Assembly: GCA_949840955.1 (NCBI GenBank)
Contig: CATKXV010000013.1
Coordinates: 1 to 47,927, forward strand
Source of the DNA: an uncultured Anaeroplasmataceae bacterium
GTDB lineage: Bacteria; Bacillota_I; Bacilli_A; Acholeplasmatales; Anaeroplasmataceae
Direction of reading: 5' to 3'
DNA length: 47,927 nt
The notes beneath the pieces are model-generated. The model saw only the letters and a program-made list of their open reading frames with translations, was not told where the DNA came from and searched no databases. Shown piece after piece: positions 7,099-45,599 of the stretch; positions within the stretch are counted from its first letter, which is position 1; each line of letters opens with the position of its first letter. The position numbers were made by a program, and so were the translations under genes.

Positions 7099-8253
7099 CT
7101 AAATGAAGATTTTTATAAAAATGGATTTCATTAATTCAAAGAAATTTTTCCGTTGGATATCTCCGTTGCTAACCAGATTTCCCTCCTGAATGAGGGTATC
7201 CTTCAAATAGACCTGAACCTTACCTGTACAAGCGTCATTTTTTATTTCATAGGAATATTTTACATCAAACGCTAAGGTCTCACTTCTTTTAGATAAATAA
7301 TATAAATCCTTTTCAACAATTACATTGATTCTATTTTTATATAATATATGATCAATAGAATCTACAACCTTATCCTTTTGAGCTACCTTCTCTAGCTTAT
7401 AATTTGCATAGCCCCAGCGTAGAAGCTCTAGAGATTCCGCATTTCTTGTGGTTGGCTTATCATAACCAAATACTACAGTAATCAGTCCCATATTCTCCTG
7501 CTTCATATGAAGGGTTATACAGTATTTAGAAAAGGAGGTATACCCTGTTTTTAGTCCATCCAAATATTTAACTCTACCAATCATTTTATTGGTATTTACC
7601 AGCCAAAATGGCTTCACAGAATCCTTTCTTATGTAATCCTCTTGAAGATTTGTATAGTGTAAAACATCAGGATAATGCTCAATCAAATAATCGGATATCA
7701 TAGCCAAATCGTAAGCTGAGGTATAGTGGTTTTTACTGGATAATCCTGTACAATCTGAAAAATGAGTATTTTTAAGACCCAGGCTTTCTACCTTAGCGTT
7801 CATTTTCTGTACAAATTCAGCTTCTGAACCAGCAAGATGGATTGCCATAGCAATTGCTGCATCATTCGCAGAGGCAATACAAATGCATTTTAGGAGTTCA
7901 TCAACATTAATTTGATCACCAATCGATAAAAAGGCTTTTGATCCTTCAACCTGAGTTGGCTCTTCTGTTATAGTAAGTATCGTATCCTTGGTAATCTGCT
8001 TTGCCTCTAATGCCTCATATATCAATAATAAGGTCATAATTTTTGTCATAGAAGCCGGTGGAAGTCTTCGATCCTTTTCTTTATGAAATAAAATTTTGTT
8101 CGTACTCGTCTCAATTAAAATAGCTGAAGTACTACCACTACATAAATCAGGGGTTGACGTATCGACAGGTTCTGTTTCTACAGTAGCATTTCCCTTGAAA
8201 CAAAAGATTCCAAGGCTAGTAAATAATAGTATTGCAAATATGAGTTTCTTCAT
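7099..8253 (-). CDS. dacF: D-alanyl-D-alanine carboxypeptidase (class A low-mass PBP)
   Basis: The 384-residue exported serine peptidase trims the terminal D-Ala from peptidoglycan stem peptides. All three penicillin-binding motifs are present: SMTK at 68-71 (catalytic Ser68), SAN at 128-130 and KTG at 235-237. An N-terminal signal peptide (about 1-23) is visible, and the C-terminal part fits the PBP5-like beta domain followed by a hydrophobic helix (MKSIFIKIFI) that anchors it in the membrane. It is monocistronic with a strong terminator. TATAAT at 8274-8269 is a likely -10. The gene shows that this organism makes peptidoglycan, unlike Mollicutes. The DacF assignment within the family is by similarity only. 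Confidence 0.92.
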   Translation of the reverse strand: MKKLIFAILLFTSLGIFCFKGNATVETEPVDTSTPDLCSGSTSAILIETSTNKILFHKEKDRRLPPASMTKIMTLLLIYEALEAKQITKDTILTITEEPTQVEGSKAFLSIGDQINVDELLKCICIASANDAAIAMAIHLAGSEAEFVQKMNAKVESLGLKNTHFSDCTGLSSKNHYTSAYDLAMISDYLIEHYPDVLHYTNLQEDYIRKDSVKPFWLVNTNKMIGRVKYLDGLKTGYTSFSKYCITLHMKQENMGLITVVFGYDKPTTRNAESLELLRWGYANYKLEKVAQKDKVVDSIDHILYKNRINVIVEKDLYYLSKRSETLAFDVKYSYEIKNDACTGKVQVYLKDTLIQEGNLVSNGDIQRKNFFELMKSIFIKIFI

Positions 8254-23889: not shown

Positions 23890-24087
23890 ATGACAAATCT
23901 TATAAATTATATCAAGGATAATTATAAAATTATTATTGGAACGATTCTAATTTATCAATTGTTTTTAACAATTTTCTTCTTTTCTGCTCAAAATTTAGTT
24001 ATCCTTTCTGCAATTTCCTTAATTGTTGCTGGATATATTATCGTTCTAAATTTTAAAGATGCCATTTCTGATTTTTTCAAAAAATAA
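23890..24087 (+). CDS. 65-residue two-span membrane protein
   Basis: The product (MTNLINYIKDNYKIIIGTIL onward) has two hydrophobic helices and a charged tail (DAISDFFKK). The ATG at 23890 was preferred because GGTGAT lies at proper spacing; in-frame GTG codons at 23878 and 23881 fall inside that site. It is one of few plus-strand genes in the backbone. No family is recognised. Its end is convergent with the YsxE-like gene. Confidence 0.6.
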   Translation: MTNLINYIKDNYKIIIGTILIYQLFLTIFFFSAQNLVILSAISLIVAGYIIVLNFKDAISDFFKK

Positions 24088-24099
24088 AAGTAGATTTCT

Positions 24100-24972
24100 C
24101 TACTTTTCCATAAATTCTTTAAAGGATGCAATAAAGCATCTTATTTTTTTGGTTAAGAGTACATAATTTGCTATACTAAAGGAATTTAGAATGACATCTA
24201 GATTTACATTGAGTATCATAATATATAAGGACATAAAGCAAAAATATTTTTGGTTAAAGCTATCTAATCGCTTAATTTCTTCTATAGGGTTAATATTCAG
24301 CTCTAAAAAGCATCTACAATATAGCATAGAGATTGGGGCGTAATATAGATCAAAGGAAGGCAAAAGCCTTTGCTTATTATATAACTCTAAATCGATTTTT
24401 TTGTATATAAGACCATAGGGTACAATATACTTTTGATCAATTGACTTAAATATATCACTTTGTAAATCATATAAATATAATCTGGCATCTAAAATGACGT
24501 TATATTTAGAAAGAATAATCCAGCTAATATCGTTTTTAACTGGATTAGTTTCTATTTCACGAATACGCATTTCTAAATAAGAAAATTTATGATCTAATAC
24601 CTTATAAATATGATTCAAATTGACCAAATGCTCTTTTTTTAAAGTAATTTCAAAGCTAGATTTTTCATGAATTTCTCTTAAAATTTGTAAAATTCGCTCT
24701 GCCTTAACTCCCTTTTCTGTTAATGCCTCATAATCAAAAAATAAGAGATAGCCCTGCTGAGCCTTCATTTCAAAAACTGCTTGCTTTAGATGCTTCGTAT
24801 ATTTCAAAAGCTCAAGATAAATTTGATATTCCTTATAAGTAACATATCGCACAATATATTCCTCTAGGGAAGTAGTTTTGATGTATTCGTAATCTCTATA
24901 TGAGGTTATAGAAGAAATTTGAAAAGGAAGACTAGCTGATGCTAAATATGACCTTGTGAGATTGTCTATCAT
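24100..24972 (-). CDS. YsxE/CotS-like degenerate kinase-fold protein (putative)
   Basis: The 290-residue protein has no clear motif. It follows a SpoVID-like gene with a 41-bp overlap, the order spoVID-ysxE found in Bacillus. YsxE is a CotS-type spore coat protein with an aminoglycoside-kinase fold. Segments that could match are ILREIHEKSSFEI (small-lobe helix) and VPYGLIYKKIDLELYNKQ...FDLYYAPISML, which would correspond to the HGD...N and DFD loops with the catalytic Asp lost. If this is right it is a pseudokinase. The assignment rests mainly on gene order. Confidence 0.45.
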   Translation of the reverse strand: MIDNLTRSYLASASLPFQISSITSYRDYEYIKTTSLEEYIVRYVTYKEYQIYLELLKYTKHLKQAVFEMKAQQGYLLFFDYEALTEKGVKAERILQILREIHEKSSFEITLKKEHLVNLNHIYKVLDHKFSYLEMRIREIETNPVKNDISWIILSKYNVILDARLYLYDLQSDIFKSIDQKYIVPYGLIYKKIDLELYNKQRLLPSFDLYYAPISMLYCRCFLELNINPIEEIKRLDSFNQKYFCFMSLYIMILNVNLDVILNSFSIANYVLLTKKIRCFIASFKEFMEK

Positions 24973-25633
24973 AGCCTGCTAAAAGTTTTTCTAAACTTAC
25001 CTTATATTCCCTTGCAATCCCTTCTAAATCCTCTTCTCTTTCTACATATAAGCATTTCAACTTAAAATAGGTATTCTTAGAGTCAAAAAAATCCAAAAAG
25101 GAATTTACGTTTTCATGTGTCTTGGTTGTTATCACTCTATCCTCACGCCCTAAATTGCTAGCTAATTTATCCTCGTAATATTCCATCATATCTTCTTTAA
25201 TTTGTTCTAAGGCTTCTTCTTTTGTTTCCTGGATTTGTACTGGTGCATCAACCTTGATTTCTTTTGGGGACTCTGGAAAAATTTCTATATCCTTTTCTTC
25301 AATCACTTTGATTTCTTCAGCTTTGTCAAGTAAAAGATAATTAATGATAAGCTCATAATGGATATCTAATCCCTGTCCTTCTACTGAATAGACCTCAACA
25401 TGACCAATAAGAATTTCTAAAATTTTTAATGAATCCAAATCCAAATCAAACGGAAAATCAATGGACTTGAAGCATTCCAATCCATCTTGATCAAGATAGG
25501 AAACATTCATCTCAATAGTCCCTGTAGCTGTAGTTTCTTCTATCTGAACATCCTTTAACTTTTCCAAATGATTTTTAAGGTTGGAAATTCCTTCTAGCTG
25601 ACAAAAATTATGTTTCTCAATATTCAATTGCAT
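24932..25633 (-). CDS. SpoVID-like protein (SPOCS domain plus LysM)
   Basis: The 233-residue protein has an N-terminal domain (about 1-100: VQIEETTATGTIEMNVSYLD, FPFDLDLDSL, VEGQGLDIHYELIINYLLL) that fits the SPOCS/DUF3794 fold of SpoVID and SipL. An acidic linker (about 105-160) follows, then a C-terminal LysM-like segment (LKCLYVEREEDLEGIAREYKV and on, about 188-233). In Bacillus SpoVID anchors the spore coat around the forespore, with LysM binding peptidoglycan intermediates. It is shorter than Bacillus SpoVID because the linker is short. A YsxE-like gene follows. Assignment is by domain pattern. Confidence 0.6.
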   Translation of the reverse strand: MQLNIEKHNFCQLEGISNLKNHLEKLKDVQIEETTATGTIEMNVSYLDQDGLECFKSIDFPFDLDLDSLKILEILIGHVEVYSVEGQGLDIHYELIINYLLLDKAEEIKVIEEKDIEIFPESPKEIKVDAPVQIQETKEEALEQIKEDMMEYYEDKLASNLGREDRVITTKTHENVNSFLDFFDSKNTYFKLKCLYVEREEDLEGIAREYKVSLEKLLAGYDRQSHKVIFSIS

Positions 25634-25796
25634 AGTATCACCATTTAAGTGTATTCAATGAAATTCCTTATTATGCAAAGTTTTAAGTATCAGTTCAATA
25701 TAACATCTGAACCATATAAAAACCTTAGAATGATAAAATACTTATCTTTTCAAAACGAATTCAGCTTTTCTAATTTTTTAATTCATGAATTCCTTT

Positions 25797-26003
25797 TTAT
25801 TTTATATATTTTCTTATTTGATCTATGAAATTCGATTTCAATAGTGGATTACAATCCAATACTATTTTTTTATATTCCTCCTTATCCTTTTTTATAAAAA
25901 CATCTGTCCTATTTTCAAAAAAATAAATTCTAAGTGTAGCATTATTACTTTTGCATAAAATGGATAAGGCTTCCTTTTCTTTCGTTGTTAGTTGCTGCAT
26001 CAT
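25797..26003 (-). CDS. 68-residue protein behind an S-box-like riboswitch
   Basis: The product starts MMQQLTTKEKEALSILCKSN, has a central beta-like stretch (ATLRIYFFENRTDVFIKKDK) and is basic at the end. It has no membrane segment and matches no family I know. AAGGAGGTGAGA precedes the tandem ATG codons, which is why the start at 26003 was chosen over one at 26048 that lies inside the terminator. Its leader carries an S-box-like aptamer and intrinsic terminator, so expression should respond to S-adenosylmethionine. The function is unknown. Confidence 0.7.
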   Translation of the reverse strand: MMQQLTTKEKEALSILCKSNNATLRIYFFENRTDVFIKKDKEEYKKIVLDCNPLLKSNFIDQIRKYIK

Positions 26004-26034
26004 TCTCACCTCCTTACAGATATTCCATAAAGAG

Positions 26035-26062
26035 AAAAAAACTCCCATCGCTATGATGAGAG
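26035..26062 (-). terminator. Expression-platform terminator of the S-box-like riboswitch
   Basis: On the minus strand CTCTCATC (26062-26055) pairs with GATGGGAG (26049-26042), with one G-U pair and a 5-base loop, followed by seven T. TTCTCT at the 5' side of the stem can also pair with AGAGAA at the start of the aptamer, which would make the two structures exclusive. Confidence 0.8.
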
Positions 26063-26167
26063 AAAATTGTTTTAATTATATCCCATCATACAAGCATTAG
26101 CACCTTGTCCTTATTCAGATAGGTTGCTGACGGCTCCGAGCTTGTCTCTAACCGTTCTCTTTATGGT
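26063..26167 (-). ncRNA. S-box-like (SAM-I/IV clan) riboswitch aptamer
   Basis: Reading the minus strand, AAGAGAA, CAGCAACC and AAGGTGCTAA appear in the order and spacing of the S-box core. An ACGG...CCGT helix (P2) encloses AGAGACAAGCTCGGAG, CCT...AGG closes P3 and ACAAG...CTTGT closes P4 around GTGCTAA. The P2 arm is shorter and differs from the usual GAGGGACTGGCCC type, and P1 is weak, so it may be a variant of the clan. A promoter lies upstream and a terminator downstream. Confidence 0.68.
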
Positions 26168-26173
26168 AATTAT

Positions 26174-36112: not shown

Positions 36113-36188
36113 GGCCTGTTGGTGAAACGGTTAACACACATGCCTTTCACGCATGCATTTATGGGTTCGAACCCCGTACAGGTCACCA
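36113..36188 (+). tRNA. tRNA-Glu (TTC), integration site of the element
   Basis: A 76-base cloverleaf with encoded CCA: acceptor GGCCTGT/ACAGGTC with one G-U pair, D stem GTG/CAC, anticodon stem CATGC/GCATG around CTTTCAC (TTC) and T arm ATGGG/CCCGT. The integrase gene of the element ends 91 bp downstream, facing it. The 3' half of this tRNA is the likely attachment core; the other copy lies outside the window. Confidence 0.95.
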
Positions 36189-36194
36189 TAAAAA

Positions 36195-36210
36195 TATTGA
36201 TATATCAATA
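36195..36210. repeat. Palindrome at the element edge
   Basis: TATTGATATATCAATA is a perfect 16-bp palindrome 7 bp beyond the tRNA. It could be an arm-type or excisionase site at attL, or the stem of a weak tRNA terminator. Confidence 0.4.
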
Positions 36211-36268
36211 AATTTTCTATCCCAACGCTATGGGGGTTTTGAGAAATTTATAGATATATTTAGGTGAA

Positions 36269-36301
36269 GATACAAGTATTAGCAACTTGTATCTTTTTTT
36301 T
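36269..36301 (+). terminator. Intrinsic terminator facing the integrase
   Basis: GATACAAG (36269-36276) and CTTGTATC (36286-36293) followed by eight T on the plus strand. It stops transcription from the tRNA and overlaps the last codons of int. Confidence 0.8.
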
Positions 36302-37244
36302 GTTCTAAGACATTAAGAACGCTTTTTGAAATAAAATCTTCTTCAGCATGAAGGTAGCGTTTAGTAATTTCAAGTGAGGTATGTCCTAATACTTTTTGAA
36401 CGATAGAAACATTTACGTTTTGATTAACTAAAGTACTAGCAAGAGTATGTCTCCACTTATGAGGACTAATCGAATTATTGATATTTAGATCTTCTTTAAT
36501 TTGATTAATAAAGAAATAAATAGTTGATTTAAAAACAATTTCTTTTGTTTGAAAATTAATCAGAAGAAATTTACTATCTTCTAATTCTGGTCTAGATAGA
36601 TAATCAGTTAATAATTCGATTGTTCTGGAAGAAAGATATACTTTTCTAGGATAACCAGTTTTAGTAAAAGATAAAAGAATACGATTAGTTTCAAGTGAAA
36701 TATTTTTACATTCTATATGCAATATTTCATTGATGCGTGCTCCTGTATCTTTTAATAAAAAAATAGTTAAAACATTTCTTAGTGTAACAATGTTTTTTAG
36801 ATTTAGATTATTCAAGTAATCCAAAATTTTAAAAATTTGTTTTTCTTGAATAGTAATAGTTTCTAAAGTATCATTTTTTAATTTTTTGAAATTACTAATG
36901 TTGTTGGCTGAACTAAGCTCATTATCAAAATTGTATTTACAAATGTGTTTAATAACTTCGATATGTTTGTTAATAGAACTGTTTTTATATTCTTTGACAG
37001 TTTTGAGATAAGAAACATATCTAGTTAGATTTTGTTTATTAATATCTTCAACAAATTTGATATTATTATCTGAAAACCACATTTTAAAGCTGTTGTAAAC
37101 TTTTTGATAGTATTCAATAGTTCCAGCTCTGCATCTAGTCTTAGAATATTCAAGCATATTAAAATAGGCTTGATTAATTGAAAGTTTGGTTTTAGTATTG
37201 TAAATTAAATTTGCAAATTGAGTTAAAATTTCTTGTGAATTCAT
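36279..37244 (-). CDS. int: Tyrosine integrase of the element
   Basis: The 321-residue recombinase has an N-terminal SAM-like core-binding domain (about 25-110) and a catalytic domain with the full set of residues: R170 in DTGARINE, K195 in SFTKTGYPR, H262 and R265 in HKWRH, H288 in LGHTS and the nucleophile Y297 in KRYLHAEED. It would integrate and excise the element at tRNA-Glu, next to which it lies. AGGAG precedes the ATG. It is transcribed toward the tRNA, as usual. Confidence 0.94.
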   Translation of the reverse strand: MNSQEILTQFANLIYNTKTKLSINQAYFNMLEYSKTRCRAGTIEYYQKVYNSFKMWFSDNNIKFVEDINKQNLTRYVSYLKTVKEYKNSSINKHIEVIKHICKYNFDNELSSANNISNFKKLKNDTLETITIQEKQIFKILDYLNNLNLKNIVTLRNVLTIFLLKDTGARINEILHIECKNISLETNRILLSFTKTGYPRKVYLSSRTIELLTDYLSRPELEDSKFLLINFQTKEIVFKSTIYFFINQIKEDLNINNSISPHKWRHTLASTLVNQNVNVSIVQKVLGHTSLEITKRYLHAEEDFISKSVLNVLEQKKDTSC

Positions 37245-37318
37245 TTTTATAATCTCCTTAAATATTTTGTGTATAAAGATTATATAAAAATGTTTTGCAA
37301 GATAATTGCCTTTATTAT

Positions 37319-37687
37319 TTAAATGTGAAAAATGTCGTTTTCATCTAAGAATTGTTTCATATATTTTACAAAAGCCATATCTGCTAAAGCTTTTTTTTGA
37401 GAAAATATTTTTTTTAAATTTGTATTCATTTCATTCTTGATTTCTTTAGTGATTTTGATAGACATTTCCCAAGAATATTTTTGAAAAATATACATTTTAA
37501 ACAATTCAAATAAATCACTATATATTTGCCAAGCATCACAAATTATAGTACCAGGAGAATCAGATATTGATTTGCAAAGGTATTTATCATTAATTTTTTT
37601 TACTGTAGCTGGAATTATATTAATTTCACTATTAGGAAGAATGATATAATAGATTTTGTTTTTGAAAATTTTTTCATTCTTTTTCAT
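37319..37687 (-). CDS. Unidentified protein beside the repressor
   Basis: The 122-residue protein is basic at its start (MKKNEKIFKNK) with a short beta-like part (YYIILPNSEINIIPATVKKI) and a helical C-terminal half with many Lys and Glu. No family is recognised. GAGGAG precedes the ATG. It lies between the XRE gene (23 bp away) and int, so a role in control of integration or a regulatory partner of the repressor is plausible but unproven. Confidence 0.65.
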   Translation of the reverse strand: MKKNEKIFKNKIYYIILPNSEINIIPATVKKINDKYLCKSISDSPGTIICDAWQIYSDLFELFKMYIFQKYSWEMSIKITKEIKNEMNTNLKKIFSQKKALADMAFVKYMKQFLDENDIFHI

Positions 37688-37710
37688 TATTTTAACTCCT
37701 CTTCTTTTTT

Positions 37711-37929
37711 TTAATTTTGTTTTGATAAGTCTGTGATAAGTAAATTTTCCATTGAAATATTAAAATATTTAGCAATTTTATAAAAAAAAGTAGCAGTTGG
37801 TTCTGACCCATTTTTATATCTATTATAATTTTGCTTTGTTATTCCAATGCAATTACATATTTCTGCGATAGATTTGCCTGTTTCTTTTTTTTCTTTTTCA
37901 AATAGAAATATCAAGTTTTCAGTCAGCAT
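37711..37929 (-). CDS. XRE-family repressor
   Basis: The 72-residue protein is almost a single Cro/CI-type helix-turn-helix: residues 18-60 carry KSIAEICNCIGITKQNYNRY followed by KNGSEPTATFFYKIAKYFNI. There is no extra domain, so it lacks a visible sensor or self-cleavage part. AAAGGAG precedes the ATG. Two matching 16-bp inverted repeats upstream of the gene flank a strong divergent promoter, so it is the likely repressor of the element's plus-strand operon and of itself. Confidence 0.85.
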   Translation of the reverse strand: MLTENLIFLFEKEKKETGKSIAEICNCIGITKQNYNRYKNGSEPTATFFYKIAKYFNISMENLLITDLSKQN

Positions 37930-37952
37930 ATTTTCTCCTTTCTTGAAAAAGT

Positions 37953-38014
37953 GTAAATTATTGTTTACTTTCGTTTTATTTAATGATATAATGTTTTTGT
38001 AAACAATTGTTTAC
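37953..38014 (+). promoter_or_regulatory. Control region: rightward promoter between two operators
   Basis: The plus-strand promoter is TTTACT (37964-37969), a 17-bp spacer and TATAAT (37987-37992). Operator 1, GTAAATTATTGTTTAC (37953-37968), covers the -35 box. Operator 2, GTAAACAATTGTTTAC (37999-38014), is a perfect palindrome 6 bp after the -10, at the transcription start. Their centres are 46 bp apart. Binding by the XRE protein at both would shut the operon off. Confidence 0.8.
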
Positions 38015-38170
38015 ATTTGTAAAAAGTAAAAAGAACCTTTTTACAACATAAAAAGGTAGTCTGCATATAAAAAGAGACTTTAAGTAAGTATTTCATTATT
38101 TCACCAAAGTAATTATAACATATTTTAAAGTACGTTTAAACTTTTTAATGCAAAAATTTTGCCTTTTATA
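38015..38170 (+). other. Structured leader of the rightward transcript
   Basis: The stretch holds no gene. It contains two stem-loops in sequence: ACCTTTTT/AAAAAGGT (38035-38057) and AGTCT/AGACT (38059-38080). These do not carry a T-run. They may form part of an untranslated leader or a small RNA. Confidence 0.35.
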
Positions 38171-38256
38171 AAATACTCCAGGAATTCTTTTGTTCATATC
38201 TTCTCTTTTAAAAATATGTGTGTTGTATGTAAAACGTTAATGTTCCTGGAGTATTT
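38171..38256. repeat. 14-bp inverted repeat with 58-bp loop
   Basis: AAATACTCCAGGAA (38171-38184) is the exact reverse complement of TTCCTGGAGTATTT (38243-38256). There is no gene between the arms. The position, at the head of the transfer operon and beside the repressor, fits an origin of transfer or a regulatory RNA structure. Confidence 0.55.
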
Positions 38257-38272
38257 AAAATTTTTAGTGATA

Positions 38273-38292
38273 TTTTCCACTCGAGTGGAAAA
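38273..38292. repeat. Dispersed palindrome, copy 1 (intergenic)
   Basis: TTTTCCACTCGAGTGGAAAA is a perfect 20-bp palindrome 17 bp after the 14-bp inverted repeat. It recurs at 40773 and 43232. Confidence 0.75.
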
Positions 38293-38306
38293 AGTGAGGT
38301 GTAGAG

Positions 38307-38418
38307 ATGAAGTTTTTTTAAAATAGTATGGAATACGATATTTATTCTTATTGGAATAGGATTAATTGTTTTGTTTGTTTGGTTTCGATATACGATTAAA
38401 AGCATGTTTGGAATGTAG
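38307..38418 (+). pseudogene. Small membrane peptide interrupted at seven T
   Basis: From the ATG at 38307, preceded by GTGAGGTGTAGAG, the frame reads MKFF and stops in a TTTTTTTAA run. Skipping one T restores a 36-codon frame, MKFFKIVWNTIFILIGIGLI followed by VLFVWFRYTIKSMFGM, a clean single-span membrane peptide with positive ends. Either the gene is broken by one base, or slippage at the T run produces the full peptide. No function is known. Confidence 0.5.
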
Positions 38419-38454
38419 ATTATCTATTAATATGGAAAACAGGAGGTATAGATA

Positions 38455-38832
38455 ATGTTTTTAAAAAAAGAAAATAAGTCTAAGAAACGTAAATATAAAT
38501 TTAAGCTGACTGATTACGAAGCTTTGAAATTAACTGAAGCAATTACTGAAGTAATACTTATGACATTAAGAGATATAGATGATGTAAAAAAGGATGAAGA
38601 AATAGATACAGTTGTTCTTTATGATTTGATCAGTAAGAAATATGCTCTTATGCAGGTAATGAAAGCATTCGGTTCTAATGTATATCAAGATGAATTAAAA
38701 TCTCGAAAAACAATTGATAAAGAAATTAAATTAATTTTAGAGGAATTAGACGAAAAAAATAAAATTATTTTATTAGATAATTCTCCTTCTGTTGTTGAAA
38801 AATCATCCATTCAAGAGGTAAAGCCTTTATGA
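38455..38832 (+). CDS. Unidentified element protein
   Basis: The 125-residue protein starts with a very basic stretch (MFLKKENKSKKRKYKFKL) and is otherwise helical, with acidic and basic patches (DDVKKDEEIDTVVLYDLISK). No family is recognised. GGAGGTATAGATA precedes the ATG. It is the first full gene behind the control region, so it is under the repressor. Confidence 0.7.
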   Translation: MFLKKENKSKKRKYKFKLTDYEALKLTEAITEVILMTLRDIDDVKKDEEIDTVVLYDLISKKYALMQVMKAFGSNVYQDELKSRKTIDKEIKLILEELDEKNKIILLDNSPSVVEKSSIQEVKPL

Positions 38833-38876
38833 AAATAAAAAAAGAAAATTTTAAGGAAAGGGTAACGGATTAAATT

Positions 38877-39143
38877 ATGAAAATAAAAAAAAGTGTTGTT
38901 GTTACATTAAGTGATGATGAAAAGCGAGCTTTAGGAAGACTTGCTGCACATATGCGTGTTGGTGCTATTGGTAGTGAAGATTCTCCTATTTATTGTTCGT
39001 CTATGTCTTGTACCGATTGTCCTTTTTATAGGGAAGCCGAGTATATAGGCTATCATTGTTTAATTAATCAAATAATTCATTTAAAGTTTGAATTAAGTTC
39101 TATACTTGATCAAATTAAAAATGGTAATGATATAGAGGTTTGA
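38877..39143 (+). CDS. Small Cys-rich element protein
   Basis: The 88-residue protein has YCSSMSCTDCPFYREAEY in the middle and one more Cys at YHCL, four to five Cys that could bind zinc or an iron-sulfur cluster. The N-terminus reads MKIKKSVVVTLSDDEKRALG. The next gene overlaps its stop by 4 bp. It matches no family that I know. Confidence 0.7.
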   Translation: MKIKKSVVVTLSDDEKRALGRLAAHMRVGAIGSEDSPIYCSSMSCTDCPFYREAEYIGYHCLINQIIHLKFELSSILDQIKNGNDIEV

Positions 39144-39388
39144 AAAAATTGAAAATAGATGAATTAGAAAAGAAAGTTCTAGATGTAATTAAAAATAAAA
39201 AGAAAATCATAGTAGAAGATTTAATTGAAAAAATAACTATTTATGAATTGATGCATTTGATTGTATTAAAAGAGGAATTTTCTTCTATTCAAATTGTAAA
39301 CGTTGATCTGCAGCAAAAAAATAAATTTGCTGAAGGAGATAAGGAAATAATGTGTCCTTATTTTGAAATTGAAAAGAAAGGGTGTTGA
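39140..39388 (+). CDS. Small helical element protein
   Basis: The 82-residue protein is charged and probably helical, ending MCPYFEIEKKGC. The start is probably the TTG at 39140, overlapping the upstream stop (TTGA), with GAGG just upstream; a second TTG lies at 39149. Translational coupling to the Cys-rich protein suggests a shared task. No family is recognised. Confidence 0.6.
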   Translation: MKKLKIDELEKKVLDVIKNKKKIIVEDLIEKITIYELMHLIVLKEEFSSIQIVNVDLQQKNKFAEGDKEIMCPYFEIEKKGC

Positions 39389-39460
39389 AAATGTTCAAAC
39401 CACGTGATCATATTCCATAGTGTATATTAGTTTATTAAAAAAGAAAGGAGGAAAAAAACT

Positions 39461-39805
39461 ATGATTCGTAAGGAAAGAGGCAAAGTTTATCCAGGTGCAG
39501 TTAATAATAAGCGAAAAAGATATGCTAAAGATTTAAAAAATGGTGTAGCTCATGACAGAAATGGAAATGTCATTTCGGATCCTGAAACTGGTGTCGTAAG
39601 AGAATTGTCACGTCATGAGAAATCTTATAGAGCTGGATATAGTGCTGGATGTCAAGAAAGTACTGCTGCTGCTAAAACTGCTGCTGGATTAAAGGCAAAT
39701 GAGAAAATGCCTGATGGCGTAAAAATTGTTAATGTGGCTGTTAATACTTCTACTAATAAGGCTTTAACTTCTAAACAATTAGAAAATCTTTATAAAGTAA
39801 AATAG
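39461..39805 (+). CDS. Unidentified basic element protein
   Basis: The 114-residue protein is basic at the N-terminus (MIRKERGKVYPGAVNNKRKRYAK, about 1-23), has a YRAGYSAGCQESTAAAKTAAG segment and an alternating C-terminal strand (GVKIVNVAVNT). AAAGGAGG precedes the ATG. DNA binding would suit the charge. No family is recognised. Confidence 0.7.
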   Translation: MIRKERGKVYPGAVNNKRKRYAKDLKNGVAHDRNGNVISDPETGVVRELSRHEKSYRAGYSAGCQESTAAAKTAAGLKANEKMPDGVKIVNVAVNTSTNKALTSKQLENLYKVK

Positions 39806-39833
39806 TCAGACATGACTAATAAAAACGTAAAAA

Positions 39834-39872
39834 TGTGTGCTGTGTGCAGAAAGAAAGAGGAAAAGGAAAATG
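39834..39872 (+). repeat. Duplicated leader, copy A
   Basis: TGTGTGCTGTGTG, then AGAAAG, then GAAAAGGAAA in front of the start codon at 39870. The same string lies before the gene at 40504. Confidence 0.6.
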
Positions 39873-40421
39873 AATTTTGATTTAAAAAAGATTGATGCAG
39901 TAGTTGCATCTCAAAATGAAAAATTAATAGCTGGAGGAAAGAAAATATATCCAGTTGAATTAACAAACAATGAGGGTGAAAAATATACTCTTGATTATGT
40001 TGTTGAACCATGGCTGATTGAAAAGATGTCAGGACGTAGTAGTTCCTATTATAGGCTCCATAAGACTATAACTAATGGGGTAGGAAAAAAGATTGAACTA
40101 CTTCTTATGTTAAGCGATGAGCAAGTAGAATATATAAATTATCACAATAATAATTTATTAACTGTTTTAGGTGGAAAAAATACCAGTTTGAAACAAAATA
40201 TACGAACTCGTTTGACTTATGGAGTTGGAAGTAATGGACTTCCATATATTAGGTGTCAAGTATTGATATCTGATCGAATTAGGATAAGTGATTTTATATC
40301 AGCGCTTAAAACTGAAATGTTGCTTGATTCATGTAGTGATTCTAAAACTGCTTTAGATGTTATATTAGAAAAAATAACACCTTTAGAAGAATTAGATAAT
40401 GATGAGGTAAAAATGCTTTAG
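39870..40421 (+). CDS. Unidentified element protein
   Basis: The product is 183 residues from the ATG at 39870, preceded by AGGAAAAGGAAA. An in-frame ATG 33 bases upstream lies in the duplicated leader and was not used. The protein starts MNFDLKKIDAVVASQNEKLI and is mixed alpha/beta with an SGRSSSYYRLHKTITNGVGK stretch. No family is recognised. A terminator-like hairpin starts right behind the stop. Confidence 0.65.
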   Translation: MNFDLKKIDAVVASQNEKLIAGGKKIYPVELTNNEGEKYTLDYVVEPWLIEKMSGRSSSYYRLHKTITNGVGKKIELLLMLSDEQVEYINYHNNNLLTVLGGKNTSLKQNIRTRLTYGVGSNGLPYIRCQVLISDRIRISDFISALKTEMLLDSCSDSKTALDVILEKITPLEELDNDEVKML

Positions 40422-40423
40422 TA

Positions 40424-40463
40424 GAGATGGCTTGGAATCCTTTAAGATTCCGGGTCTCTTTTT
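40424..40463 (+). terminator. Terminator or attenuator inside the element operon
   Basis: GAGA...TCTC (40424-40427, 40455-40458) encloses GGAATC/GATTCC and is followed by TTTTT. It lies between two genes of the same operon, right after the stop at 40421, so it probably lowers expression of the distal genes. Confidence 0.7.
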
Positions 40464-40474
40464 ATATTTAAAAT

Positions 40475-40506
40475 TGTGTGCTGTGTGTAGAAAGGAAAAG
40501 GAAATG
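40475..40506 (+). repeat. Duplicated leader, copy B
   Basis: TGTGTGCTGTGTG (40475-40487), AGAAAG and GAAAAGGAAA before the ATG at 40504. It matches copy A apart from a 7-base gap and one substitution. Confidence 0.6.
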
Positions 40507-41412
40507 AAACTAGATTTAATAATTACAAAAAAAGAATTAACTAATGAGGAGCAGGAATTTTTAGAACTTCATAATAAGGCTTATCAAGCTGCAACATATT
40601 CTTCTTTATATGGATATGAATTTGGAGGTGTTCTTAAGCAATTAAATGAAACTAAAAAATATTTAGTTGCTGGATATGAGACTTTGGATGAATATACTTC
40701 AGAAGTATATGGAATGGGAAAATCACAAGTTTATAAGTATATTAAGCTATATGAAACATATAGTCCTGATTTTTTCCACTCGAGTGGAAATTTAGGGATT
40801 ACAAAATTTAATATGTTAGCTTCTATCGGTGATGAAAAAGAAATCAAGGAATTTGTAAAAGAAAACAATGTTTCTGAGATGACTGTTAAAGAACTTCAAT
40901 CTAAAATTGATGAGTTAAAAAAGATTGATGAAGATAAGGAAGCGATTATAATTCAATTACAAATGGATATAGAAGCTTTACAAGCAGATCCAGGAGCTCC
41001 TGAGATAAGGGAAGTTATAAAGGAAGTTCCAATTTTTGATGAAACAAAAATTAAAGATTTAGAAGAAAAACTTTCTAAAGCTGAAAAGAATAATGCAAAG
41101 CTTTCTTCTGAACTTGAAAAGCTAAAGGATTCATCTGATAAAGAAACCATTAATGAACTTAAAAAAAGTCTTAAATCTTCTACTGAGGAAAAAAGAAATT
41201 TAGAAGCAAGTATAGAGGCGTTAAAAAAGAAAGTGTCTCTTAGTTCTAATGAAGATTATAATCGATTTAAAGCTCAATTTAATTTACTCGAAAAAGTGAT
41301 AAAAGAAACAAAAAATATGGTATTTGAATTTTTAGATATTGATTTTCAAAGCAAATGTTTTATTGCTTTGAACAAATTGTTTGAAGGGAGTATAAAACAT
41401 GACAAAAAATGA
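40504..41412 (+). CDS. DUF3102/ParB-like coiled-coil protein
   Basis: The product is 302 residues from the ATG at 40504. The N-terminal 130 residues (LKQLNETKKYLVAGYETLDE, VYGMGKSQVYKYIKLYETY, LGITKFNMLASIGDEKE) look like the DNA-binding helical domain of DUF3102 and KorB/ParB-type proteins. A long coiled coil (about residues 140-260) follows. It is probably a DNA-binding, multimerising protein. It contains copy 2 of the dispersed palindrome (coding FFHSSG), a candidate binding site. Its last 14 bp overlap the PcfK-like gene. Confidence 0.7.
   Translation: MKLDLIITKKELTNEEQEFLELHNKAYQAATYSSLYGYEFGGVLKQLNETKKYLVAGYETLDEYTSEVYGMGKSQVYKYIKLYETYSPDFFHSSGNLGITKFNMLASIGDEKEIKEFVKENNVSEMTVKELQSKIDELKKIDEDKEAIIIQLQMDIEALQADPGAPEIREVIKEVPIFDETKIKDLEEKLSKAEKNNAKLSSELEKLKDSSDKETINELKKSLKSSTEEKRNLEASIEALKKKVSLSSNEDYNRFKAQFNLLEKVIKETKNMVFEFLDIDFQSKCFIALNKLFEGSIKHDKK
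40773..40790. repeat. Dispersed palindrome, copy 2 (inside the coiled-coil gene)
   Basis: TTTCCACTCGAGTGGAAA is a perfect 18-bp palindrome identical to the core of copy 1. It codes FHSSG in frame. Confidence 0.75.
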
Positions 41413-41704
41413 TTTTTTAAGGCTTCAAGAGGAAGATATACAAGATTCTGATAATTCAATGCTTAAACAAATATTAGAGTGTTTTAAAATGCACATTCCC
41501 GCAGATGCTGAAATATCAGAAAATAAAAGTGTATCTGGAATGTATGATTACATGTATTCTTATGCGAAGAAAAATCAAACAAAGGGCGTTTGTTGTATTG
41601 ATCCATTTGATGGTTTTAAGAAGCTTGCATTTGAATATTTAGAAATAAAAGAAAGTAAAACTATAGATGATTTTCAAGTTTCTTTAGAGGATATTTTTTC
41701 GTGA
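41399..41704 (+). CDS. PcfK-like protein
   Basis: The 101-residue protein has the PcfK pattern: an N-terminal helix (MLKQILECFKMHI), then KSVSGMYDYMYSYAKKNQ and a C-terminal DPFDGFKKLAFEYLEI. PcfK-like genes stand before pcfJ in Firmicute conjugative plasmids and elements such as pCF10; their function is poorly known. GAAGGGAG precedes the ATG. The stop overlaps the pcfJ start (GTGA). Confidence 0.68.
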   Translation: MTKNDFLRLQEEDIQDSDNSMLKQILECFKMHIPADAEISENKSVSGMYDYMYSYAKKNQTKGVCCIDPFDGFKKLAFEYLEIKESKTIDDFQVSLEDIFS

Positions 41705-43275
41705 ATAGAGATGAATTAAAAAAGTTTACTACTTCTCTTATTTATGAGAAACCAAAGGTCTATAAATATCTTATGAATAAGGCTGAAAAGCAAATTAAAA
41801 ATTCCGTTTTATATAAAAAACGTTGTTATTGTCCTAGATGTAAAAAAATAGTTTTAGCAAACGAATCAAGATATGTTTCTGAACCTGGGATAGTAAATTG
41901 TTTTGAATGTGGTAAATCTATTCTTGTGGAAAGAATTTTTAATAGAGTAAAGAAAGAAAGAATCATTCGATTTATTTTTGATATTTTGGATTATAAAGAT
42001 AATTGTTTAATTAATCAAACGTATTGCATAACACATTATTATGATTTTAAGTCTGGATATTTGAAATTTAAAGAATCTTTTTTTAAATTATCAACTGAGG
42101 TTTATGATTTAATATCAAATAAGAATTGTTTCATGAACATTAATGTTTATCAAGCTCATATGGGATATAAGTATATATTTCCTTTTGAGGAAGCATATGC
42201 AAAGAATGTTAGATATCCATTTGAAGAACAAAATATATTTTATCATTGGAAATATGAAGAGGTTTTCTTTTTAAGAGGTTTATATATAACTACAAATATT
42301 AAAAGTAAATTTTTGAAATATCTTGACATAAAACAAATAGAAAAGGATTTTGTTTATAATTATAAAATTATTCCTTTTTTAAGAAGTTTATATATTTATC
42401 CGAATTTAGAAACGTTGTATAAGTCAGAAAAATATTGCTGGACAAATAATGTTTCTGATTTTTTCAGTAGTCTTTTAGATTGTTTAAAAACTAATAAAGG
42501 TTATTTAAAATACAGATATGAGCTATTTAAAGAAATTTATACTTCTGTAGGTAAAAATGTTTTAGATTTTTGCTATTATAGAGTAAATTTAAAATTAGGA
42601 AAACCATATGTTAAGGATATTCATTTGTTGAATTATTTATCTGTTCGTAAAGAATATATAACTCATGATATGGTTAAATATTTGTCTAAGCAACCATTTA
42701 GTTTGTATGATGATTATATAAAAATGGCTAAACAATTAAATTTAGATTTAAAGGATAAAAGAATTTTATATCCAAAAGAATTAGATGTTGCTCATGATGA
42801 ATTAGTTGAACGTTTAAATGAAGAGGAAATTAAAGTGAATGAATTAAAATTTATTAATTTAAGCGAAGCATATTCCTTATTAGAATTTGAAGAAGCAGGA
42901 TATATTTTTAGTCTACCTAAAAATGCTATTAGTTTTAAAATAAGAGGAAGAAAATTAAAGCAATGCTTATTCTCTGCAAAATATCATGAAAGATATTTAG
43001 ATAAAAACACAATTATTGTTTATGTTGATTCTAATAAGGATAAATCTTTAGATAATCAATTCACTTTACAATTAAATATGCGTTTGGACATTGTTCAGTT
43101 TCATGGATTTGCAAATGATATTAATTGTTCAAAAAAACAAGAACAAAATTTATCGTTTGTAAAAGGAATAATTGAAAGACGGCTAGCACTTTTAAAAATG
43201 GTAAAAGGACAAGTTGTCTATAAAAATAATATTTTCCACTTAAGTGGAAAAAAAGAAGGTGTGAATGCACCATAG
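41701..43275 (+). CDS. PcfJ-like protein
   Basis: The 524-residue protein starts with a GTG overlapping the PcfK-like stop. An N-terminal zinc ribbon (CYCPRCKK and CFECGKS, about 42-76) is followed by a long helical region. The PcfJ core comes later: YDDYIKMAKQLNLDLKDKRI then LYPKELDVAHDELVERL, and GRKLKQCLFSAKYHERYLDK followed by IIVYVDSN. PcfJ proteins are widespread in Firmicute conjugative elements, their role still open. Copy 3 of the dispersed palindrome lies at the end, coding FHLSG. Confidence 0.78.
   Translation: MNRDELKKFTTSLIYEKPKVYKYLMNKAEKQIKNSVLYKKRCYCPRCKKIVLANESRYVSEPGIVNCFECGKSILVERIFNRVKKERIIRFIFDILDYKDNCLINQTYCITHYYDFKSGYLKFKESFFKLSTEVYDLISNKNCFMNINVYQAHMGYKYIFPFEEAYAKNVRYPFEEQNIFYHWKYEEVFFLRGLYITTNIKSKFLKYLDIKQIEKDFVYNYKIIPFLRSLYIYPNLETLYKSEKYCWTNNVSDFFSSLLDCLKTNKGYLKYRYELFKEIYTSVGKNVLDFCYYRVNLKLGKPYVKDIHLLNYLSVRKEYITHDMVKYLSKQPFSLYDDYIKMAKQLNLDLKDKRILYPKELDVAHDELVERLNEEEIKVNELKFINLSEAYSLLEFEEAGYIFSLPKNAISFKIRGRKLKQCLFSAKYHERYLDKNTIIVYVDSNKDKSLDNQFTLQLNMRLDIVQFHGFANDINCSKKQEQNLSFVKGIIERRLALLKMVKGQVVYKNNIFHLSGKKEGVNAP
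43232..43251. repeat. Dispersed palindrome, copy 3 (3' end of pcfJ-like gene)
   Basis: TTTTCCACTTAAGTGGAAAA is a perfect 20-bp palindrome that differs from copy 1 only by a symmetrical change of the centre (CG to TA). Symmetry is kept, so the palindrome itself seems to be selected. Confidence 0.75.
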
Positions 43276-43290
43276 AAAGGGGAAATTAAT

Positions 43291-44184
43291 TTGAAAAGAA
43301 AATTAAACAAAAAAATAACTGTTCTTCTTTTAATGATAATAGGATTATTTTCTTTTTCGTTAAAAGGGGTGACAACTTATGCAGATTCAATAGGTTTAGC
43401 GCCTGGAGAGGATCCATCAATATATAATACTGAGTGGACTCAGGCAAATGTTAAATATTGGAATATTTACGGAAAAATTACGCCATTTGGAGGGATTAGA
43501 ACAGTTTCTTATATCCGTATTACAGATCAAAAAGGTAATTTTATTACTAATGTGACCAGATTAAAAGCTAGTTATATTATTGATGGTAAAAAATATACAA
43601 GAAATAAAGATATATCTGACAAAGGGTTTCAAGATCATATGTTCACAATGGGCAATGTACTTTCTAAAGATGGACAGTTTACAATATGTACAGAAAGAGA
43701 TAATAATATTTGTTTTAAAAAAAAATTTAAAGATTTTGATAAAGCTGAAACAGACTTTGAGGAATGTAATTTTAAATGGATGTGGAATTTTAAAGTTTCT
43801 GAAATAGTTTATCTTTATGTTTGGTATTTAGATCCAGAAACAGGAAATGAGGTGGCAAGCTCATTTATGCCAAATGGAGCCCATCCACTGTATGATGAGA
43901 ATGGTGTTTTAAAAGGCATCTATGACGCAAATGGAAATCCTCTAGATGATTATTCTATGGGTGCCGATGGAATTATTGAAGATGAAACAGGAAAAGATTT
44001 AGTTCAGCCTGAGGATCAATTTGTTGGCCAAATAGAAAGTTCATCCTTCTTCAAAACGGCATCAGAGACTTTAAATAAGATTTTAGATACGATTACAATA
44101 ATATTTTCTTTAATAATAGGAATTGTTATTTTTATGGTTTTTATTCGTTTTTTTAAAAAAATTATTAATTTATTCAAGAGGTAA
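43291..44184 (+). CDS. Secreted, C-terminally anchored element protein
   Basis: The 297-residue protein has a signal peptide (about 1-32, ending TTYADS), a soluble extracellular part with DENGVLKGIYDANGNP-like turns, and a C-terminal hydrophobic helix (about 268-288) with a basic end (FFKKIINLFKR). The start is a TTG preceded by AAAGGGG. It is the first of a run of four envelope genes. A surface or mating-channel part is likely. No family is recognised. Confidence 0.72.
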   Translation: MKRKLNKKITVLLLMIIGLFSFSLKGVTTYADSIGLAPGEDPSIYNTEWTQANVKYWNIYGKITPFGGIRTVSYIRITDQKGNFITNVTRLKASYIIDGKKYTRNKDISDKGFQDHMFTMGNVLSKDGQFTICTERDNNICFKKKFKDFDKAETDFEECNFKWMWNFKVSEIVYLYVWYLDPETGNEVASSFMPNGAHPLYDENGVLKGIYDANGNPLDDYSMGADGIIEDETGKDLVQPEDQFVGQIESSSFFKTASETLNKILDTITIIFSLIIGIVIFMVFIRFFKKIINLFKR

Positions 44185-44188
44185 AAAG

Positions 44189-45583
44189 ATGAAAAAAGTA
44201 TTTAAAATATTATTTTCAATATTATTAATTCTAATTATTGCTGGAGGTATTACATATGCAGTAGCGCCTAAAGAAGAAAAAGATAATATTACAAATAGCT
44301 TCAAGAAACCAATTGATTTTATAAAAGATTTGTTTTCAAAGGTAGAGGGCTTTATAGACCTATCAAAACTAACTTCAGATGAGCTTTTCAACCAGGATTC
44401 TAAGGTTCAGTTAAGTATTAATCAAACTAATTTAAACAGCTATTTTACAGATAAGACCTTATCTAGCTCTAAAGAGGTAACAAAGCTTTATCAGGATGCC
44501 TATAGATCTCTTAGAATCTTCGAAACGAATGCTGTAGAGGAAAAACTAAATCTTTATATTAACCTGGAAAATGATTTAAAGAAATCAATGTATATCTATG
44601 CTACTTTTACCTTTGAAAAAGAAAGTTCTTTTGAATATGATCCAGATTATATACCTAAAGCTAAAATTAAGGAAATCGAATTGAAATGGTATAACGGTGA
44701 TTTGATTGGTAAGTATTCTGAAGGTATTACTACCTATGGTAAAGCTTCTCAGAAGCTTCTAGGGTCTAATTTTAAGGTGACAAATAAAAGTAAGGCTACA
44801 GTAAAGCTACAACAGGGTGGAGAAGCTAATCCATGGAAAGATTATGATTTGGAATATATTTATCATATGGGAAATGAAAAAGTGGATGATATTGTTACTA
44901 TAGATAGTGAAAACCATCTAACTGGAGTATCTGTAGCTAAATATACAGCCTCAGACATTCAAAAGATTTGCGATTCATTATTTACAGATCTGTTTCAAAT
45001 TGATGAAATCAAGGACGAAACTACAGCTCCAGTGGGTGAAGTAAAACTTATCTCTTTAGAAGGATTAAAAGCGATTGCAGATTGCACATACAACTATGAT
45101 AAAGCTGTCTATGGAAAACATCCGCTTAATGATATATGGGATAGGAACTATAGAGACTATGTAAGTCAGTATCATGAGGATCCACTTGATATGTTGTTAT
45201 TTGCAGTTGATTTTTTAAACGAAAAGACACTAGATAAAAAGACATTCTACCTTAACGTTTGGGCAGATCCATTAAGAGATTCTAGTGGTAATTTAATAGG
45301 GGATTTAAATGGATTAGCTGAGGTTTACGAATATAGAAATAATGTATTTCATCTTGTTGGAATCTATAATTCTAAATACTCCTGGGTAACTTCTAAAGAA
45401 TATGATTTGACAGATTATCGTGAGTGGAGCTTAGAACAGACGTTTATGTTCTCTAATTATAAGCTAAATTTAAACCCTGAAAATTTGCTTTCCTCTACAG
45501 CAACCTTCACAAATCTTATGAGCATTAATGAAACGGACTTTCCGTCAGAAATCATGCAAAATATTTTTAAAACAAAAGAATAG
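44189..45583 (+). CDS. Membrane-anchored extracellular protein
   Basis: The product is 464 residues from the ATG at 44189 (after AGAGGT, 4 bp behind the previous gene). An N-terminal helix (MKKVFKILFSILLILIIAGG) anchors or exports it. The large remainder is extracellular and rich in Asp, Lys, Ser and Tyr with repeated short beta strands. No motif is recognised. Codon use looks richer in G/C-ending codons than the genes before it, closer to the chromosome. It lies in the envelope group of the element. Confidence 0.7.
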   Translation: MKKVFKILFSILLILIIAGGITYAVAPKEEKDNITNSFKKPIDFIKDLFSKVEGFIDLSKLTSDELFNQDSKVQLSINQTNLNSYFTDKTLSSSKEVTKLYQDAYRSLRIFETNAVEEKLNLYINLENDLKKSMYIYATFTFEKESSFEYDPDYIPKAKIKEIELKWYNGDLIGKYSEGITTYGKASQKLLGSNFKVTNKSKATVKLQQGGEANPWKDYDLEYIYHMGNEKVDDIVTIDSENHLTGVSVAKYTASDIQKICDSLFTDLFQIDEIKDETTAPVGEVKLISLEGLKAIADCTYNYDKAVYGKHPLNDIWDRNYRDYVSQYHEDPLDMLLFAVDFLNEKTLDKKTFYLNVWADPLRDSSGNLIGDLNGLAEVYEYRNNVFHLVGIYNSKYSWVTSKEYDLTDYREWSLEQTFMFSNYKLNLNPENLLSSTATFTNLMSINETDFPSEIMQNIFKTKE

Positions 45584-45599
45584 AAAGGAATGAAAAGAA

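Follow-up and report, generated by a model that had tools for sequence, protein, structure and literature searches.

SpoVID of Bacillus subtilis is recruited by SpoIVA through the region before its LysM domain, and its N-terminal domain drives encasement together with SafA and CotE (PMC6282716); when SpoIVA polymer does not cover it, the LysM domain binds lipid II away and prevents the cortex from being assembled, and SpoVK is an additional partner (PMC10659427). The gene lies in a spoVID-ysxE operon with ysxE downstream, and five members of the BSK family of spore kinases, to which YsxE belongs, have been termed pseudokinases; H148 and D269 of YtaA are fold residues kept in almost all of the BSK pseudokinases (PMC2860764). 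Bacillus anthracis ysxE mutants have normal-looking spores and a strong sporulation defect (PMC12700454, 2025), and a 2012 survey found spoVID and ysxE in most bacilli and in no clostridia (PMC3533761). Clostridioides difficile has SipL, another SPOCS-LysM factor (PMC10659427). Here we analyze two overlapping genes, P1 and P2, on a 47,927-base contig (the window) of G000, a metagenome-assembled genome (MAG) of an uncultured Anaeroplasmataceae bacterium (2.10 Mb in 34 contigs, estimated 97% complete). We consider it probable that they are orthologues of spoVID and ysxE in a relative of Anaeroplasma that is a putative endospore former, and that they make up a reduced but working module for coat encasement in which YsxE is a scaffold with no catalytic role.

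The NCBI taxonomy places Anaeroplasmataceae within the Mollicutes, in Mycoplasmatota, and the Mollicutes are the textbook case of wall-less, non-sporing bacteria. In the 2012 survey, none of the Mollicutes with sequences at that time is given as a spore former (PMC3533761). The presence of spo0A and wall genes in some Anaeroplasmataceae has been published before: Field, Bowerman and Hugenholtz (2024) reported sporulation genes, including spo0A, in the majority of Anaeroplasmataceae genomes and peptidoglycan genes in 40-60% of them, and considered that some may be walled or spore-forming; the words spoVID, ysxE, and spoIVA are absent from the main text of that paper (PMC10868615). Among the matches listed in the open-licence literature there was no other report of the pair in this group. 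The new elements are the SpoVID-YsxE pair itself, its co-retention with other genes, and, linked to the pair, a 65-aa membrane protein that fits no known family.

P1, a probable short and divergent SpoVID

P1 (24932-25633, minus strand; 233 aa) comes first and P2 (24100-24972, minus strand; 290 aa) second, with the start codon of P2 inside P1. Both open reading frames (ORFs) were confirmed, with an overlap of 41 bp, bearing out the original prediction of a SPOCS/LysM-type gene followed by an overlapping kinase-like gene. Among the 160 genomes of the window's order that form our comparison set, 17 have P1 homologues and 19 have P2 homologues; the P1 counterpart in G142 was assigned by position. 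We compared an alignment of the P1 family (17 rows, with the duplicate loci L018 and L019 excluded) with one of SpoVID-like proteins from the wider class (13 rows), of which 11 match the Pfam model SPOCS_spoVID-N (PF20918; best E value, 1.5e-20) and seven match LysM. In a single hhalign comparison involving no database, the two profiles aligned over the SPOCS part with a probability of 96.6 and an E value of 4.9e-10; with only the close P1 family the E value was 1e-8, and a mismatched control gave 0.066. This profile-profile comparison places a SpoVID-type SPOCS domain in P1.

The AlphaFold2 model of P1 (mean pLDDT 73) has three parts. Residues 1-102 (25328-25633, minus strand) are predicted to form a SPOCS-type all-beta domain, with strands over residues 2-101 at a pLDDT of about 91, and the hhalign columns fall in this region. 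Residues 103-190 (25064-25327, minus strand) form a mostly disordered linker, most of it with pLDDT <50, in which conservation across the family marks a helix (about residues 138-160) and an FLxFFD stretch (179-184). Residues 191-233 (24935-25063, minus strand) are predicted to adopt a LysM-like fold, with residues 191-232 modeled as beta-alpha-alpha-beta at pLDDT values mostly of 80-87. The SPOCS part of the SPOCS-plus-LysM architecture originally proposed is thus borne out at the profile level; the LysM part rests on this predicted fold, and its sequence signal is weak, with Pfam LysM matching two of the 17 family members at a best E value of 0.22.

We read P1 as a short, divergent SpoVID, whose SPOCS-type beta domain leads through a disordered linker to a C-terminus with a predicted LysM-like fold. 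It shares with SpoVID of Bacillus (PF20918 plus LysM; TIGR02907) the N-terminal SPOCS-type domain, the flexible middle, and, in the predicted fold, the LysM-like end; a ysxE-like gene comes next, and the binding partners SpoIVA and CotE are encoded in the same genome. Unlike Bacillus SpoVID, it falls under every model cut-off, its LysM sequence is eroded, and it has 233 residues, compared with residue numbers of up to 575 for the B. subtilis protein (PMC10659427). SipL has the same SPOCS and LysM plan, but P1 is linked through its SPOCS domain to the SpoVID-N subfamily and stands ahead of a ysxE-like gene; the SipL model PF12673 has no match in G000, which is uninformative, as none of 14 control genomes matched it either. 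A search of 198 genomes of the class with TIGR02907 gave no match over the cut-off, with most of the listed matches in the LysM range, and was used only to show that in G169 and G180 the gene immediately ahead of YsxE has SPOCS-range matches. A similarity of P1 to alpha-crystallin domains (best VIA Z 5.3) was not trusted.

P2, a probable divergent YsxE lacking the catalytic Asp

The distant P2 relatives in G159 and G142 match the YsxE model TIGR02904 (spore_ysxE) at 4.1e-11 and 1.1e-10, respectively, and the same model matches 13 genomes that belong to the class but not to the order at 51-99 bits, none over its cut-off. The phylum search with TIGR02904 gave 38 matching genomes, from which we analyzed the 13 best class loci and G142 and left out the other 24 (27.7 bits or less); G159 was added from the P2 family search. 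When the P2 family (15 rows, excluding partial contig-end copies from G134, G099, G090, and G117) was aligned to the class YsxE proteins (13 rows), hhalign returned a probability of 99.5 and an E value of 1.2e-22 over 282 columns, and a mismatched control returned 0.46. Similarity of P2 to TIGR02904 over most of its length is thus established by way of its relatives only.

The AlphaFold2 model of P2 (pLDDT 87.8, pTM 0.84), for which the alignment included two partial copies (L064 and L065), predicts a choline/aminoglycoside-kinase-like fold. Its top structural neighbors are 4pdy (Z 16.8, rmsd 4.6, 270 residues aligned) and B. subtilis YtaA (2q83; Z 14.6, rmsd 5.7, 269 aligned), and the remaining neighbors have Z scores of 12.5 or less. 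In a joint alignment the HxD position of P2 reads YKK. Both the fold related to spore kinases and the missing catalytic Asp were anticipated by the original prediction. The Asp is absent from all 15 rows of the P2 family and from 10 of the 13 class rows. These ten have kept the beta-3 Lys and the D269-equivalent; in the window's 11 closest rows, both the Asp and the D269-equivalent are missing throughout and the Lys is missing from 10, and P2 of the window has lost all three. The equivalent of YtaA H148 is kept in seven of the 11 close rows, including the window, in a low-identity alignment that has no YtaA among its rows. These losses make a kinase of the usual type unlikely, and a binding role is the natural reading.

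We read P2 as a divergent YsxE, with the predicted fold of a spore kinase and no catalytic Asp. As with YsxE of Bacillus and the BSK family (TIGR02904), of which YtaA is the solved relative, the kinase-like fold extends over the full length and the gene lies downstream of spoVID. In its loss of the catalytic Asp it resembles the five BSKs termed pseudokinases (PMC2860764); it differs from the family in being more eroded, with the beta-3 Lys and the D269-equivalent also gone. The YsxE orthologues at L135, L136, and L137 (genomes G169, G191, and G180) have a full HGDxxxxN catalytic motif, and the YsxE line may therefore have been an active kinase ancestrally.

Several results weigh against assigning the two genes to these families. 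Direct scans of the window proteins with Pfam and NCBIfam at E values up to 10 gave no SPOCS, LysM, or CotS/YsxE match for either protein and only chance-level matches under the cut-offs. The profile searches originally suggested for SPOCS, LysM, and CotS were thus negative for the proteins themselves, and the links to SPOCS and YsxE come by way of their relatives. TIGR02907 matches one of the 17 P1 relatives, at an E value of 0.025 and behind chance matches; TIGR02904 finds nothing in G000 and nothing over its cut-off in the 195 phylum genomes searched, and the scores of G159 and G142 are 41-43 bits compared with a cut-off of 263.55. The hhalign match of P1 covers the SPOCS part and does not extend into LysM, the pTM of the P1 model is 0.42, and its fold has no solved relative, with no Foldseek match at an E value of 0.001. 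The fold residues H148 and D269, usual in pseudokinase relatives, are partly lost in P2. The lack of direct profile matches and of anything firm from the P1 fold search would suit an explanation in which the proteins are unrelated to SpoVID and YsxE and resemble them by chance, one having a domain rich in beta strands and the other a kinase-like fold of a generic kind. We find this hardly credible in light of the transitive profile links with their negative mismatched controls, a two-gene order that is constant over the class, and best-matched folds that include the spore kinase YtaA. Searches of P1 and P2 sequences against solved structures gave chance-level matches only, and DUF3461 is an example of a chance-level match under the cut-off in the direct scans of window proteins.

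Gene order and a third gene at the locus

P1 and P2 homologues adjoin one another wherever a single contig carries both. With neighboring genes named by reading their sequences, the pair is adjacent in all 15 of the class and order loci compared, sometimes with a gene between the pair and a flanking marker. Upstream of the pair are lon and/or engB in nine of these loci (engB directly in seven), and downstream are valS or glyS, also in nine; among the eight close loci holding P1, four have engB directly upstream. The Bacillus region has the order lon-engB(ysxC)...valS. In the window the pair has rplU, prp, rpmA, and obg in its vicinity and no adjacent engB; L061, with engB upstream and rplU-prp-rpmA-obg downstream, bridges the order of the relatives to that of the window. 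The order of P1 and P2 matches spoVID-ysxE, as had been proposed from the window alone, and the wider lon-engB(ysxC)...valS surroundings are found in only a part of the relatives and not in the window.

Convergent with P2 is a gene for a 65-aa membrane protein (23890-24087, plus strand), which no Pfam or NCBIfam model covers. A profile search found it in 18 of the 160 genomes at 62-114 bits, all of them carrying P2; the search model represents 12 of these genomes, and the other six are independent finds. Of the genomes with P2, only G159 lacks a match, and weak matches (about 21-22 bits) were seen in two further genomes and as a second match in G115. In G116 the gene is about 33 kb away from the pair and is still kept. 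Five more matches lie near ysxE in the class loci (L135, L136, L137, L140, and L143) at E values of 0.0011 or better; the class copies at L146 and L147 were already in the profile. The region upstream of the gene looks conserved, with a CATATANTA-like element followed by GGTGAT. The 65-aa gene is a co-retained third gene of the locus.

Purifying selection and co-retention with spore markers

Both P1 and P2 are intact and under purifying selection. Their frames are open in close relatives, save for copies cut by contig ends, and for the closest pair of relatives (L056/L057) dN/dS is 0.048 for P1 and 0.051 for P2, at a dS of 0.65-0.72; other pairs have a dS >1 or saturated, with dN/dS of 0.045-0.26.

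P2 is also distributed together with spore and peptidoglycan genes. Counting across the 160 genomes those with both the marker and P2, the marker only, P2 only, and neither, we obtained 19/3/0/138 for a peptidoglycan transpeptidase, 16/1/3/140 for SpoIVA over its cut-off, 18/3/1/138 for a SigF/SigG-type sigma factor at 254 bits or more, and 17/5/2/136 for Spo0A (Fisher p values of 1.2e-16 to 7.5e-22, to be discounted for relatedness). The best match of the SigF model in G000 proved to be SigG, and for this reason the 21 genomes in the sigma count are given as SigF/SigG-type, a label that does not establish either factor genome by genome. The pair occurs without a SpoIVA match in G102, G115, and G132, and without Spo0A in G099 and G137 (64% and 74% complete, respectively); G090 has P2 without a sigma match. 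Of the 22 genomes with a peptidoglycan transpeptidase, 21 have the sigma factor, 20 have Spo0A, and 21 have MurG (112 bits or more), and none lacks both the sigma factor and Spo0A; the transpeptidase and the spore markers seem to have been lost together. G120 and G129 have a lone Spo0A domain and lack SpoIVA, a spore sigma factor, a penicillin-binding protein (PBP), and the pair.

The same data bear on whether the genes are relics, remnants of a sporulating ancestor that are decaying without function. P1 is short; in P2 of the window the HxD Asp is gone, as are the Lys and the fold Asp, both of which class relatives keep; and three members of the genus with other spore genes lack the pair. Against decay are the open frames, the low dN/dS values of both genes, and the finding that all genomes with P2 have a peptidoglycan transpeptidase and most have SpoIVA and a spore sigma factor. 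We rejected the relic explanation as the main view on dN/dS and co-retention, and consider it very unlikely.

Spore and peptidoglycan genes of G000

The gene set of an endospore former, with Spo0A, spore sigma factors, SpoIVA, SpoVA, and peptidoglycan synthesis, is encoded in G000, with several of the matches under curated cut-offs, as is expected for a divergent lineage. Spo0A is present, SpoIVA has its ATPase, middle, and C-terminal domains, and CotE matches PF10628 at 3.2e-28. SpoIIGA (4.4e-7), SigE, and SigG form a gene run; SpoIIAA, SpoIIAB, SpoVAC, and SpoVAD adjoin each other on the contig that carries SpoIVA; and a LysM protein has the SafA model as its best match. For peptidoglycan synthesis there are one class-B PBP with PASTA domains and two class-A PBPs (among transpeptidase matches over the cut-off, there is a single class-B PBP), a possible MurA of the EPSP-synthase family, and a MurG that scores 166 bits and so stays under its cut-off. 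Spo0A, SigE, and SpoIVA, by which the original prediction was to be judged, are therefore all encoded, and neither a P2 fold unrelated to CotS nor a lack of all other sporulation genes and of SPOCS similarity was found.

A few observations in related genomes and elsewhere in the window concern the same genes. At L151:2331-4961, spoVAC-spoVAD come directly after spoIIAA-spoIIAB, along with an ORF that reads as spoVAE-like, and no sigma gene was seen there. A row at L176 (G142:C5), also named by reading, has FtsW/SpoVE-like, MurG, MurB, FtsZ, SpoIIGA-like, SigE-like, and SigG-like genes with one small ORF between them, an order that we take to resemble that of Bacillus. A small protein with a LysM-like start lies near ruvA-ruvB in three genomes (L174:3403-3798, L175:17416-17799, and L176:3956-4333) and is, by its position in the gene order, a possible SafA orthologue. 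The window itself codes for a D-Ala-D-Ala carboxypeptidase (7099-8253, minus strand; PF00768, 2.9e-71), the leader of which resembles that of the SpoVID-like gene.

The gene content also bears on a re-use of the pair in a non-spore envelope function, for instance, to mark where vegetative cells make peptidoglycan. P1 retains a LysM-like end, and the tightest co-occurrence is with the peptidoglycan transpeptidase, present in 19 of 19 genomes with P2; however, G000 retains SpoIVA, CotE, SpoVAC/SpoVAD, and SpoIIGA-SigE-SigG, which are known from spore formation, and class relatives with a Pfam-recognized SpoVID SPOCS domain share the two-gene locus. We regard such re-use as unlikely.

A proposed reduced SpoVID-YsxE module

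Returning to the coat-encasement reading, the parts of P1 and the presence of SpoIVA, CotE, a SafA-like LysM protein, and MurG in G000, with no strong SpoVK, are best explained by a reduced version of the SpoVID hub. By analogy with B. subtilis, in the mother cell and under sigma E, SpoIVA would bring P1 to the forespore via the segment before LysM; the SPOCS domain of P1 would then bind CotE and the SafA-like LysM protein and so let the coat enclose the spore. The LysM-like end of P1 could contact peptidoglycan precursors, presumably lipid II, and in this way couple the coat to the cortex, and P2, as a catalytically dead spore kinase, may serve as a binding scaffold in the coat. The checkpoint half of the SpoVID mechanism is less certain to operate here.

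Other findings count on the opposite side. G000 lacks a strong match to SpoVK; all 160 genomes match the SpoVK model at the AAA level, and G115 and G142 alone have strong matches (>240 bits). No sigF distinct from sigG was identified. G130, G131, and G135 have Spo0A, a sigma factor, and PBPs without the pair, and because the genomes are related, the co-occurrence counts overstate their independence.

The original prediction offered two alternatives, that the lineage makes spores or that it kept coat-anchor genes for another purpose. Spore-making, putative and read from genes, is the favored alternative, since the two genes show no sign of disruption, evolve under purifying selection, and occur in no genome without a peptidoglycan transpeptidase, mostly together with spore markers. 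A further idea is that peptidoglycan is made only for the spore, the vegetative cells being wall-less like those of other Mollicutes, with the PBPs, MurG, and carboxypeptidase serving the cortex and SpoVID-YsxE and the 65-aa protein linking coat and cortex; we consider this doubtful. With SpoIVA, SpoVID-YsxE, and CotE beside SigE/SigG and peptidoglycan synthesis, the question of spores in Mollicutes becomes directly testable by culture. There may also be a practical gap in detection, with the pair falling under curated cut-offs; the predictor SpoMAG has spoVID among its informative genes and scored its own Acholeplasmatales MAGs at 0% (PMC12536801).

Upstream elements and neighboring features

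A candidate sigma-E-like promoter for P1, GCATAAT-N14-AATACACT (25648-25676, minus strand), is tentatively placed upstream of the gene, and the three closest relatives agree with it in spacing and position; together with the window these have GYATAAW-N14-AATAYAYT at -22. A similar element with 14-base spacing lies upstream of spoIVA in seven genomes of the window's genus, the starts having been located by motif in six of 16 loci plus G000, all of that genus, with the other 10 loci excluded. Scored with a sigma-E consensus, eight of nine pair upstream regions reach 11-13 of 15 and seven of seven spoIVA upstream regions reach 12-13. The controls are not clearly lower: 25 other genes of the window score 9-13 on the same consensus, four of them at 12 or more. 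A stricter pattern, picked after seeing the sequences and thus partly post hoc, is found in five of nine pair upstream regions, four of 13 of the 65-aa gene, three of 24 control genes, and 5-12% of shuffled sequences. No convincing element was found upstream of cotE. These results provide weak evidence for a sigma-E-like promoter before P1. The candidate ribosome-binding site of P1, GGTGAT (25637-25642, minus strand), is present in all nine upstream regions compared.

Directly before the P1-P2 pair is an 83-aa ORF (25797-26048, minus strand) that matches no Pfam or NCBIfam family over the cut-off, and just upstream of it is a SAM-I/IV riboswitch (26057-26171, minus strand; 46.8 bits). Farther along the window, the region 36113-47489 holds a tRNA-Glu gene, next an integrase-like gene, and then a series of genes on the plus strand, and resembles an integrated mobile element.

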